The translations under genes were made by a program, and so were the position numbers. 47,056 bases of DNA from an uncultured Clostridia bacterium. Lineage in GTDB: Bacteria; Bacillota; Clostridia; Oscillospirales; Oscillospiraceae. The stretch lies in contig CAMNKQ010000002.1 in assembly GCA_946542465.1 (NCBI GenBank), positions 1 to 47,056 of the forward strand, in the 5' to 3' direction. Shown here piece after piece: positions 30,618 through 46,177 of this stretch (within the stretch, counting starts at the first letter, position 1; every line of letters begins with the position of its first letter). Under the pieces are notes generated by a model. That model ran no database searches and was not told the origin of the DNA. It was given only the letters and a program-made list of their open reading frames with translations.

Positions 30618-32357
30618 ATGGCGAATCGGATCCAGGAAGCGAAAGACAGCGTAAACGAGATTTTGCAGAAGGCCTATCAGCGCGCGGCGGAGAAGGGCCA
30701 GCTGCCCGCCGGGGCAAGGCTCAGCGGCACGGTGGAGATCCCCAAGGACACCGCCAACGGCGACTTTGCCGCCAACCACGCCATGACCGGCGCCCGCGCT
30801 CTGCGCATGGCCCCGCGCAAGATCGCCGAGACCCTGATCGAGAACGCGGAGCTGGAGGGGACCTGGTTTGCCTCTCTGGAGGCCGCCGGCCCCGGCTTTC
30901 TGAACTTCCGTCTGGCCGACAGCTGGTACGCCGATGTGCTCACTTCCATCACCGGCGAGGGCGAGAACTACGGCCGTCTGGACGAGGGCAAGGGGAAAAA
31001 GGTCATGGTGGAGTTTGTCTCCGCCAATCCCACCGGCCCCATGCACATGGGCAATGCCCGCGGCGGCGTCCTGGGCGACGCCCTGGCCAGTGTCCTGGAC
31101 CGGGACGGCTATGAGGTCTGGCGGGAATTCTATGTGAACGACGCCGGCAACCAGATCGAGAAGTTCGCCTCCTCCATCGACGCCCGCTATCAGCAGCTGA
31201 TCCTGGGCGAGGACGCGGTGGAGTTTCCCGAGGACGGCTACCATGGCGAGGATATCAAGGACCTGGCCGCCGCCTTCCGGGCGGAAAAGGGGGACGATTG
31301 GCTGAATACACCCGTGGCCGAGCGCCACGCCGCCATGGCCGCCTTCGGCCTGGAGCGGAACATCCCCAAGATGCAGAGCGATCTGAGCCGCTACGGCATC
31401 CACTACGACCAGTGGTTCTTCGAGTCCGAGCTGCACAACACCGGCTATGTGGCCGACTCCGTGCAGAAGCTGGGCGAGCGGGGCTATACCTATGAGAAGG
31501 ATGGGGCCCTGTGGCTGGCCACCTCCCGCATCCTCGCCGAGAACCTGCGCAGGCAGGGCAAGAGCGAGGAGGAGATCGAGAAGCTGGAGCTCAAGGACGA
31601 CGTGCTGCGCCGCGCCAACGGCTTCTACACCTATTTCGCCGCCGACATCGCCTACCACCGCAACAAACTGGAGCGGCGCGGCTTTGACAAGGCCATCAAC
31701 GTCTGGGGCGCCGACCACCACGGCCATGTGGCCCGCCTGAAGGGCGCGCTGGATGCGCTGGGCCTGGACGGGGAGCACCGGCTGGACATCGTGCTGATGC
31801 AGCTGGTCAAGCTCACCCGCAACGGCGAGGTGGTGCGCATGTCCAAGCGCACCGGCAAGGCCATCTCCCTGACCGACCTGCTGGACGAGATCCCGGTGGA
31901 CGCCGCCCGCTACTTCTTCAACTCCCGGCCCGAGAGCCCGGTGGAGTTCGATCTGGAGCTGGCCGTGCGCCAGGACAGCGAGAACCCGGTCTATTACGTC
32001 CAGTATGCCCACGCCCGCATCTGCACCCTGCTGGCCGCCCTGGCCGAGGAGGGACAGGCGGTGCCGGAGACGGCGGACGTCTCCCTGCTGAAGGATCCCA
32101 CCGAGCGGGAGCTCATCAAGCAGCTGGCCGCCCTGCCGGAGGAGATCCATCTGGCCGCCCAGAGCTATGATCCCAGCCGCATCAACAAGTATGTGACGGA
32201 GCTGGCCGCCCGCTTCCACCGCTTCTACACCGCCTGCCGCCTGAAGGGCGCGGAGGAGGACGTGCTGAAGGCCCGTCTGCTCCTGGCCGACTGCACCCGC
32301 CGGGTGATCGCCCTGTCCCTCGGCATCATCGGCGTATCCGCTCCGGAAAAGATGTAA
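30618..32357 (+). CDS. argS: Arginyl-tRNA synthetase
   Basis: Class I aminoacyl-tRNA synthetase of 579 residues. The N-terminal additional domain (about 1-105) contacts the tRNA elbow. SANPTGPMHMGNARGG carries the HIGH-type motif at 143-146 (HMGN), and VRMSKRTGKAISL carries the KMSKS-type loop near 407-411. The C-terminal anticodon-binding helices end with ALSLGIIGVSAPEKM. The ATG at 30618 follows ACGGGGGAA. The frame is open far upstream, but that part overlaps DUF1934. Last gene of its unit; a structured repeat follows. Confidence 0.96.
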   Translation: MANRIQEAKDSVNEILQKAYQRAAEKGQLPAGARLSGTVEIPKDTANGDFAANHAMTGARALRMAPRKIAETLIENAELEGTWFASLEAAGPGFLNFRLADSWYADVLTSITGEGENYGRLDEGKGKKVMVEFVSANPTGPMHMGNARGGVLGDALASVLDRDGYEVWREFYVNDAGNQIEKFASSIDARYQQLILGEDAVEFPEDGYHGEDIKDLAAAFRAEKGDDWLNTPVAERHAAMAAFGLERNIPKMQSDLSRYGIHYDQWFFESELHNTGYVADSVQKLGERGYTYEKDGALWLATSRILAENLRRQGKSEEEIEKLELKDDVLRRANGFYTYFAADIAYHRNKLERRGFDKAINVWGADHHGHVARLKGALDALGLDGEHRLDIVLMQLVKLTRNGEVVRMSKRTGKAISLTDLLDEIPVDAARYFFNSRPESPVEFDLELAVRQDSENPVYYVQYAHARICTLLAALAEEGQAVPETADVSLLKDPTERELIKQLAALPEEIHLAAQSYDPSRINKYVTELAARFHRFYTACRLKGAEEDVLKARLLLADCTRRVIALSLGIIGVSAPEKM

Positions 32358-32363
32358 TACTAT

Positions 32364-32520
32364 CAAGCTGTTGACAAAGTGTCAACAGCTTGAAGCACAA
32401 AAATGAGAACTTCCATAAAAGTTCCCATTTTTGTGTGGATCAAACTCGAGAGGGAATAACCAATCCCCTCTCGAGCTCTCCCCATGCGTATCCATGCTTG
32501 GCCACATGGGTTTGTCTACA
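32364..32520 (+). repeat. 157-bp four-hairpin repeat, family C copy 1
   Basis: Direct repeat of 40706-40862, same length. Hairpins in order: AGCTGTTGACA-aag-TGTCAACAGCT; a long A/T-flanked stem around AACTTCC..AAGTT; CTCGAGAGGG..CCCTCTCGAG; and CCATG..CATGG. The first stem here has TTGACA/TGTCAA where copy 2 has TCGACA/TGTCGA, a compensatory pair. The second hairpin ends CATTTTTGTGTG and could terminate argS transcription. Confidence 0.85.
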
Positions 32521-32745
32521 ATCTGATACTATTATCAGATTAAATTCTTTAATCTGCACAGCATAAGCTCGCGTAAGCCAAATCAAAGATTTGGACGCTC
32601 GCTTAAGATAAGCCGCAGTTCCTGCGGCATTTTCATCGCAAAGGCGCTGAAAATCCGTCTCATGCAGAACCTCTACGCGCCTTACGGCGCTATAAAAACC
32701 TTTAAGAATGAAAGGTTTTTATGAGGTTCTAGTATAAGAAATGAA
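32521..32745. other. Hairpin-rich intergenic stretch with possible three-way junction
   Basis: Successive hairpins: ATCTGATA/TATCAGAT; CCAAATC-aaa-GATTTGG inside partly paired flanks; GCCGCAG-ttc-CTGCGGC; and TTTTCA..TGAAAA. Then AGAACCTC (32666) pairs with GAGGTTCT (32730) and encloses two hairpins, GCGCC-ttac-GGCGC and AAAAACCTTT/AAAGGTTTTT. No open frame is seen. It could be a structured RNA or a composite of degenerate repeats. Confidence 0.5.
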
Positions 32746-32750
32746 AGAAC

Positions 32751-32802
32751 CCCCAGTCATCGAATCCCTTTGTATGACGTTCGATGACCGGGGTTATTTT
32801 TT
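32751..32802. terminator. Terminator between argS and the GT-C-like gene
   Basis: CCCC-GTCATCGAA pairs with TTCGATGAC-GGGG, one mismatch, followed on the plus strand by TTATTTTTT. It lies just past the minus-strand gene's stop and could act in both directions. Confidence 0.75.
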
Positions 32803-32810
32803 AGGAGATG

Positions 32811-34421
32811 CTAACGGAATTCTGCCAATACGGCGGGATCGTCAAAGCGATAGAGATAATAGGACAGATTCGGAGAATGAAAACTCTTTACCAGTTGAAA
32901 CGCCTTTTCAAATTCTTCCCGGTAGGCGTCGGATGCCGCGGACTGAAGCCAGCGGTAGCCGGAAGCCTCGTCATAGGCCGAGTCGGATAAGACAAGCAGA
33001 GAATGCGCCGGGTCAACCTGGCGGTACTCGACAGCCGACACCGGCGAGCCAAAGGGCGCGAGCAGCGCTCCGTCAGCCATATCGGCTTGCGGGTAGATGG
33101 GAGAGGAGCGGATCGTATCGGCAGAACAGGCCGCAATACTGGGGGCCTCGTAGTCACCATAGAGAACCGTGATTTCCTGATCCTGCAGATAAGCAACGAT
33201 CTCCCGGTAAAACTGCATCTGGGAGGAATAGCGATGATAATCGGGATAAAAGGTATAAACCGCGTTTATCATCCCGCAGGCCAGCAGCGCGCAGCAGAGG
33301 AAGCGCGCGGAAGCGGCAGGGCCGGAATCGACCAGATAGGCCAGGGAAAAGGGGAGTAGCAGATACCAGACGAAGAAGTAGATCGCCCGGACACGGAAAA
33401 GGAGAACCCCGACGCCAAAGACACACAGAAGGCTGATCCAACACAACAAAAGCGGCAGGGCCTGATCGCTCTCCGGTTTCGTTTTCAGCGCTTTTATCAG
33501 GGCCCACACGGAGACCAGGAGGAGCACAAGCGCGAGCAGCGTGAGAATCTGCCATTTCCAGCTCTGAGACAGATAGCGCAAACCGATCAGCTCCAAAAAA
33601 GAAGAGGCGGTTGCGCGAAAAGCGGCCAGCAGATCCGAGGCGGAGCGATTGAACTGGAGCGGTGCGATGTTGGGGATGCGCTGCGCGGGGATCAGTCGGC
33701 CCGCCCCGAGACCGAGAAGGTTGAACGCGAGAGCCGCCAGAGCGAAGCGCAGCCCGCGTTTTTCCGGCGTCTGCTTCCGCCTCAAGACAAGAAGGCCTGC
33801 CAAAAGGACGAGCGGGAGGTTCAATACCAGCGTCTCGCGCGGGCTTTGGAGGCCCAAGGCGATATCGCAGAGCATAGCGAGAATCGGAAGAAGAGCCGAA
33901 ACCGGGAGGCCGCGCCGCAGCCGGAGCCAGATCCCCAGGTGGAACAAAAGCACCCAGGCATAGCAGGCATAATAGCTCGCCATGGTGTAAAAAAGCTGGA
34001 GGCCATAGACGCAGTTTGCCGCGCTGTCGCCAAGAATGGTCGCGCCGACAAGAGAGAGCGTGCCGGCGGCGATGGCGCGGGTGGAAAACAGAGGCCGGCA
34101 GCACCAGATAAACAGAAACAGAATGAGCCCCAGCATCAGGCTGGAGGCCAAGGCCATGGCCGATACGCTGTCGGGAATGAGCGAGTAGATAAGAGAGGCG
34201 AGCACCGGTGTTGCGATGATATAGTATTGGTTCCCAAAATACCAGTCCTTCGGGAAAAAGCTTCTCTCCTGGCTCATCAAACGGGCGACATACGCATCCG
34301 CATACATGTCGTAAGTATACCATGCGGCGCTGTGATAATTGATGAGAAGAATGCCGATGACATAGGCGGCCGCGGCGGCGAACAGAAGAAGGGAGAGCCT
34401 GTCCTTTTTTTTGAGAGCCAT
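32811..34421 (-). CDS. GT-C-like polytopic membrane protein
   Basis: Integral membrane protein of 536 residues with about ten to twelve hydrophobic spans and a C-terminal extracytoplasmic domain (about 400-536). The first external loop contains YTYDMYADAYVARLMS and later WYFGNQYY, with acidic residues placed like the catalytic loop of GT-C glycosyltransferases (YfhO or PMT-like). That makes a lipid-linked-sugar glycosyltransferase a reasonable guess, but no signature proves it. The ATG at 34421 lies at the first membrane span and has a weak GAGGTG site. Codon and base usage are somewhat less GC-rich than the neighbours. Confidence 0.65.
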   Translation of the reverse strand: MALKKKDRLSLLLFAAAAAYVIGILLINYHSAAWYTYDMYADAYVARLMSQERSFFPKDWYFGNQYYIIATPVLASLIYSLIPDSVSAMALASSLMLGLILFLFIWCCRPLFSTRAIAAGTLSLVGATILGDSAANCVYGLQLFYTMASYYACYAWVLLFHLGIWLRLRRGLPVSALLPILAMLCDIALGLQSPRETLVLNLPLVLLAGLLVLRRKQTPEKRGLRFALAALAFNLLGLGAGRLIPAQRIPNIAPLQFNRSASDLLAAFRATASSFLELIGLRYLSQSWKWQILTLLALVLLLVSVWALIKALKTKPESDQALPLLLCWISLLCVFGVGVLLFRVRAIYFFVWYLLLPFSLAYLVDSGPAASARFLCCALLACGMINAVYTFYPDYHRYSSQMQFYREIVAYLQDQEITVLYGDYEAPSIAACSADTIRSSPIYPQADMADGALLAPFGSPVSAVEYRQVDPAHSLLVLSDSAYDEASGYRWLQSAASDAYREEFEKAFQLVKSFHSPNLSYYLYRFDDPAVLAEFR

Positions 34422-34503
34422 TGGATAACACCTCAATTCGCAATAAAAGTATGTTAACATAGAACGCGCTAAAAATCCACAGGGAATCTCCCCGGACACA
34501 GAA

Positions 34504-34541: not shown

Positions 34542-34589
34542 GATCGGTTCTCGGATGTCACACAGGGGGCAGGGCGCGGCTGCCGGTTC

Positions 34590-40690: not shown

Positions 40691-40705
40691 GAGCAAAAAC
40701 AGCCT

Positions 40706-40862
40706 CAAGCTATCGACAAAGTGTCGACAGCTTGAGGCACAAAAATGGGAACTTCCGAAAAAGTTCCCATTTTTGTGTGAATCAAACTCGAGAGGGAATA
40801 ACCAATCCCCTCTCGAGCTCTCCCCATGCGAGTCCAAGCTTGGCCACATGGGTTTGTCTACA
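40706..40862 (+). repeat. 157-bp four-hairpin repeat, family C copy 2
   Basis: Same orientation and length as 32364-32520. The stem CACAAAAATGGGAACTT and its complement is perfect here (17 bp), and CTCGAGAGGG/CCCTCTCGAG is conserved in both. CCAAGCTTGG in the fourth hairpin is CCATGCTTGG in copy 1. It lies upstream of the asnS promoter and downstream of the transporter operon, both minus strand. Read on the minus strand the long stem is also followed by T-poor sequence, so it need not be a terminator for the transporter. Confidence 0.85.
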
Positions 40863-40882
40863 GGCAGAGCAGTTTGGAGAGT

Positions 40883-46020: not shown

Positions 46021-46058
46021 AAAAAACAGGTGACGTCCCACGGAGGAGACGTGCCCTG
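46021..46058 (-). terminator. Riboswitch expression-platform terminator
   Basis: On the minus strand CAGGGCACGTC pairs with GACGTCACCTG, followed by TTTTTT. It begins about ten bases after the aptamer P1 strand, so ligand-stabilised P1 would favour termination. Confidence 0.8.
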
Positions 46059-46068
46059 GAGTTTTTTC

Positions 46069-46132
46069 CGATAGTCCGGTCATTTACGGTGTCCGGGTAG
46101 AGACTTCAAATCCATATCATTTGCTTATATCG
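46069..46132 (-). promoter_or_regulatory. Guanine (purine-class) riboswitch aptamer
   Basis: Read on the minus strand, P1 CGATA/TATCG encloses the invariant core: ATAAG, GATATGG, a P2 stem, GTCTCTACC, a P3 stem around ACCGTAAAT, and GGACTAT. The base at the position equivalent to xpt C74 is C (GACTAT rather than GATTAT), predicting guanine or hypoxanthine rather than adenine. U51 of the TCTACC core is retained, arguing against the 2'-deoxyguanosine variant. It controls the downstream nucleoside transporter operon. Confidence 0.93.
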
Positions 46133-46177
46133 AAACGATGTTCAATTGCGGCAGCCGCACTGCCCATTGATGACAAT

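Follow-up and report, generated by a model that had tools for sequence, protein, structure and literature searches.

The three-way junction behind argS in a Clostridia bacterium is very probably part of a structured, MITE-like mobile element

The DNA that follows the argS gene of an uncultured Clostridia bacterium (Oscillospiraceae) folds into a three-way junction, which raises the question of whether this structure is an RNA that serves argS, a terminator or a piece of DNA with a history of its own. We analyzed it within a stretch of 47,056 nucleotides, hereafter the window, and all positions refer to this stretch. The outer stem of the junction (AGAACCTC at 32666-32673 with GAGGTTCT at 32723-32730) encloses a central hairpin (GCGCC at 32677-32681, GGCGC at 32686-32690) and an A/T-rich hairpin (ATAAAAACCTTT at 32692-32703, AAAGGTTTTTAT at 32711-32722), as a preliminary description of this DNA had drawn it. 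RNA folding of 32655-32737 returned exactly this junction, together with four outward pairs (32662-32665 with 32732-32735), at an energy of -33.1 kcal/mol, as compared to -14.3 +/- 2.8 kcal/mol for shuffled sequences (z = -6.8). The same minimum-energy fold was obtained with DNA parameters (z = -6.9), and the whole of 32560-32745 yielded z = -7.9. The three-way junction is thus far beyond chance, and the earlier judgment that such a geometry is unlikely to arise by accident is borne out, as 0 of 200 shuffles matched its energy.

A search of the window's own genome with 32340-32820 did not lead to a single homologue but to several dispersed repeat families with differing boundaries, and the comparison of copies splits the region into three units: two elements, called A and B here, and a hairpin module of 51 nt. 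Positions 32355-32737 are a copy of element B, with element A near its left end and the 51-nt module in its first hairpin, H1 (Table 1). The right arm of H1 resumes as ATAA at 32608-32611, past the insert, and one pair of H1 that is A-T in other copies of B is T-A in the window, a compensatory change. The further hairpins that had been described between 32363 and 32800 are real, but what had been taken for continuous structure consists of separate, nested units. The hairpin at 32744-32800, lying outside B, is probably the native terminator. Adjoining this stack, the minus strand has an open frame of 562 aa (32811-34499), which is missing between argS and the next gene in a relative (G033) that is 98% identical in argS. 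Elsewhere on the minus strand of the window, a purine riboswitch aptamer (46052-46152) and a tRNA (127-209) score above the Rfam gathering score.

Table 1 Features of the locus behind argS. Positions are those of the window.
Feature	Positions	Strand	Basis or remark
argS stop codon TAA, left copy of the element B target duplication (TNA)	32355-32357	+	Sequence; TNA duplication in other copies
Element B left end TACTA, separated by element A from the body of B	32358-32362	+	Deduced from the intact copies L009/L056
Element A, nested IS1182-type MITE, 16-bp ends TCAAGCTGTTGACAAA / TTTGTCTACAATCTGA	32363-32526	+	
Second copy of TACTA, 5-bp duplication from insertion of element A into B	32527-32531	+	Sequence; row L273 of A copies
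Element B hairpin H1, TTATCAGATTAAA / TTTAATCTG	32532-32556	+	
51-nt hairpin module inserted in H1	32557-32607	+	
Element B hairpin H2, GCCGCAG TTC CTGCGGC	32612-32628	+	Compensatory variants in other copies
Element B hairpin H3, ATTTTCATCGC / GCGCTGAAAAT	32629-32654	+	
Element B unpaired linker CCGTCTC	32655-32661	+	Near-invariant even in other genera
Element B three-way junction	32662-32735	+	Outer stem 32662-32673 with 32723-32735; central hairpin 32677-32690; A/T-rich hairpin 32692-32722
Element B right end TAGTA	32730-32734	+	
Right copy of the element B target duplication, TAA	32735-32737	+	
Terminator-like hairpin outside B, between argS and the convergent gene	32744-32800		Sequence, folding
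Second element A copy in the window, 93% identical	40705-40863	+	

The position of the junction directly behind argS and its strong folding could speak for a regulatory or termination structure specific to this gene, as the preliminary description proposed in the form of an RNA behind argS. The argS tails of relatives, however, argue otherwise: element B is absent from all 10 tails that are readable past the stop codon, including that of G033 (the contig of an eleventh relative ends before the argS tail and is not counted among the 10), and several of these relatives have a plain hairpin terminator there. Moreover, element B is found behind many unrelated genes. An argS-linked conserved RNA is accordingly rejected on the basis of these tails, and we regard any argS-specific role of the junction as highly improbable. 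A single intrinsic terminator, consisting of a G+C-rich stem and a T run, is likewise rejected, as the terminator scan calls H2 only and places no site in the junction, in line with the earlier remark that a simple terminator does not suffice. No Rfam family matched the structure above its gathering score. An influence of the insertion on this single argS transcript is possible. In G033, the gene found at 34584 of the window comes almost immediately after argS; the two loci differ by ~2.2 kb, such that G033 does not offer a clean empty site.

The junction makes up the right half of element B, which is very probably a non-autonomous, MITE-like element of ~164 bp with the ends TACTA...TAGTA and represents a family of structured MITEs. 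Among 102 genomes from this genus, 21 carry element B, and its exact end pattern occurs in more than 20 copies in one metagenome-assembled genome (MAG) and in more than 15 in another. Identical TNA trinucleotides stand on both sides of TACTA...TAGTA in 42 of the 46 full copies, while one genome has six copies, each at a locus of its own, that differ from each other in nothing but the TNA duplication. Three of the four defining features of a MITE were thus found, namely dispersed copies, a target duplication and terminal inverted repeats (TACTA/TAGTA), it being noted that the latter match over only about 5 bp. An autonomous insertion sequence (IS) with the ends of B was not found in these incomplete MAGs through PF01609, PF13359 or PF13586 transposases (the latter two in 17 genomes only), end patterns or end-only matches, and the partner searches yielded just other non-autonomous copies, chance matches and unrelated IS. 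A clean empty site for B was not obtained at orthologous DNA, two other loci being missing from the MAG of the relative.

Element B inserts at TNA and duplicates this trinucleotide, and the copy considered here landed on the TAA stop codon of argS, with the stop being re-formed on its left side. As judged by the duplication, TNA is probably cut with a 3-bp stagger by a DDE-type transposase that is provided in trans and would then join the TACTA ends of B. The agreement of the variable base between the two copies of the duplicated TNA led us to set aside single-strand mobility of the IS200/IS605 kind. Element A and the 51-nt module became part of this copy of B by insertion.

Landing on a stop codon is not peculiar to argS. 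When at least 60 open codons are required before it, the trinucleotide that B duplicates proves to be an in-frame stop codon in 23 of 45 copies. With a threshold of 100 codons, 24 of 61 copies lie on a stop codon, as compared to an expectation of 8.1 were all TNA sites within 150 bp used with equal likelihood. These counts should be read with the understanding that they rest on a crude open-frame test rather than on annotated genes, and gene-distance counts were left out, as they are distorted by open frames that extend into element B. The copies on stop codons are mostly in the sense orientation (20 sense versus 4 antisense). Away from these stops, TAA or TGA was used 29 times and TCA or TTA 8 times, and the target thus looks oriented relative to element B. 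The enrichment may reflect target choice, and it may also reflect the survival of harmless insertions; insertion on a stop codon offers a neat route to harmlessness. We found no description of stop-codon insertion by such elements in the literature searched.

The fold itself has been retained while its letters changed. Across 33 copies of B, 16 of 49 pairs changed on both sides. Considered by itself, the junction has 97.7% of its cells paired, as compared to 38-50% when the partners are slid, and its covariation score exceeded those of all 500 shuffles, although such shuffles ignore relatedness. A homologue search with a structure-aware model, as had been suggested earlier, was performed using a covariance model of the junction on 394 genomes of the order, and it yielded homologues from three further genera within the family, as well as from a single genome that belongs to a different family. 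Six of the seven matches are whole elements of 142-156 nt in the order H1-H2-H3-junction, the 142-nt homologue having one hairpin fewer ahead of the junction, and five of these six, all from other genera, are flanked by matching TNA duplications. The match in the other family is partial, lacks the central hairpin and folds as a single hairpin, whereas each of the other homologues adopts the junction fold by itself. Across genera, letters have been replaced in the outer stem and in the A/T-rich hairpin, while CGTCTC, the ACGCGCC/GGCGCTAT hairpin and TAGTAT are nearly fixed. Homologues thus retain the outer and inner pairings by means of compensatory changes, the point against which the preliminary description had asked to be judged. 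As the order H1-H2-H3-junction is kept while the letters of the stems are rewritten, the fold matters to element B. A MITE normally needs just its ends; here, an interior fold outlives the replacement of its letters across genera.

One further copy was met on a viral (phage) contig (L279:5387-5560). This copy is B-like, with TGA on both sides, and lies immediately upstream of a reading frame that begins with MENIRFDLQFFA. A first pattern scan of viral contigs revealed none, a scan for the conserved hairpin revealed this one true copy, and matches to a looser linker pattern were mostly due to chance (22 of those loci were examined). Element B was not found in named phage and plasmid records. 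The copy on the phage contig is a possible vehicle for spread.

What preserves the fold should be considered separately from how the element moves. When selection acts on one RNA strand, Watson-Crick pairs should give way to G-U much more frequently than to A-C. Among stem deviations within the genus, G-T was seen at 17 and A-C at 16 pair/type sites, with many of these deviations being single-copy mutations, possibly in dead copies. Such equality is not proof, but it lends no support to function of the RNA strand or to the view that this strand is the conserved entity, and DNA-level structure and palindrome correction fit the strand-bias result equally well. The absence of a strand bias hints faintly at action of the fold at the DNA level. 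We suspect that the fold would most likely act as DNA in the mobility or retention of the element, for example as a cruciform or a single-stranded form recognised in transposition, and structure-dependent mobility of element B is plausible. Were the fold instead a functional RNA, element B would be transcribed as the 3' UTR of the gene ahead of it or as a small RNA of its own, for example one that stabilises the mRNA end or is cut by RNase III, with mobility merely spreading it. Such a role would agree with the predominance of sense insertions directly behind stops, with the compensation of stems across genera and with the reported RNase III processing of transcripts of NEMIS, another MITE (PMC2229807). 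We nonetheless consider it unlikely, given the balance of G-T and A-C deviations, the lack of an Rfam family and the occurrence of antisense and non-stop insertions.

It is also possible, if doubtful, that there is no selection on the fold and that template switching in replication repeatedly corrects the palindromes of an active MITE, while the letters drift. Near-perfect stems with a sequence that is free to change, as well as the missing strand bias, are in agreement with such correction, which does not, however, explain the cross-genus CGTCTC linker, the ACGCGCC/GGCGCTAT hairpin or the fixed order of hairpins. One may further speculate, although we think it improbable, that element B belongs to an ancient line of mobile DNA and that its many-hairpin fold, with its junction, near-invariant CGTCTC linker and GCGCC hairpin, is itself the signal for a transposition machinery that favors TAA/TGA in one orientation and thereby stop codons; this would be a structure-dependent, stop-codon-targeting mode of transposition that has not been described before. 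What reads the fold, be it a transposase, a host factor or RNA machinery, is directly testable with compensatory mutants. In more general terms, the locus calls for caution, as strong intergenic structure accompanied by covariation can be a transposable element rather than the regulatory RNA of a neighboring gene.

Element A, nested in this copy of B, is an IS1182-type MITE, sharing both the ends and the stem-loop targets of such elements. The 16-bp ends of A agree with those of an IS in locus L147 that encodes a 514-aa transposase of the NCBIfam IS1182 family (NF033551, E 4e-133). Eleven of the 15 full copies of A sit between two copies of a complete 22-32 bp hairpin, often with a T run behind it (copies in such a context include L002, L003, L027, L029-L031, L033, L034, L041, L042 and L044). 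The target duplication of element A is thus a whole stem-loop, often terminator-like; in the window, A lies at the foot of H1 of B, with a 5-bp duplication. Two full-length IS with A-like ends (L147:685-2323 and L138:1377-2946) each lie, unlike A, between two different hairpins. The 51-nt module, an imperfect hairpin, is seen at two fixed places in some copies of B (in L024 at the same place in H1 as in the window, and elsewhere in B in L020, L018 and L022), and also inside other repeats; further loci with the module are L114, L115 and L213. A further MITE, with the ends GGCAACACCGCA, is nested in the A/T-rich last hairpin of B in L082 and L083. The same ends are found on several IS of ~1.1 kb with a ~330-aa DDE transposase (L118, L120, L121 and L128 among the loci), two of which are flanked by TTAA on both sides.

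Compared to known systems, element A resembles IS1272/IS1182 in its 16-bp terminal repeats, in the IS1182 transposase found between matching ends in a relative and in its stem-loop targets. IS1272, however, replaces its target stem-loop, and duplication of the whole stem-loop has been drawn as a hypothetical pathway b (PMC5678879); element A, which duplicates its target stem-loop whole, provides natural examples of such an outcome. The 3-bp TNA duplication of element B resembles the PIF-Harbinger/NuwaII (PHIS) type, PIF/Harbinger being relatives of IS5, and bacterial IS1031 reportedly produces a TNA duplication as well. Loci with PF01609, PF13359 or PF13586 transposases (the latter two searched in 17 genomes only), however, lack the ends of B. 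The 3-bp duplications are TWA for PIF/Harbinger and TNA for NuwaII, with that of IS5 being given as ANT (PMC4482050). Bacterial MITEs and small mobile repeats, such as RUP, Correia/NEMIS, ERIC and CIR, have been reviewed (PMC2229807, PMC10969869), and our search of the literature, within its limits, revealed no described family of the kind of element B. Like these MITEs, B is 100-200 bp long, dispersed and intergenic, shows no coding capacity, has short inverted ends and a target duplication and is strongly structured, while the nesting of elements within it recalls pneumococcal BOX/RUP/SPRITE. End-to-end pairing folds the majority of these elements into one long stem-loop, an exception being CIR, which has two arms and a linker (PMC2229807). 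The interior of B, in contrast, is a row of separate hairpins that ends in a three-way junction and covaries across genera. Element B is a MITE family that is set apart by this many-hairpin interior, conserved across genera, and by its insertion on stop codons.
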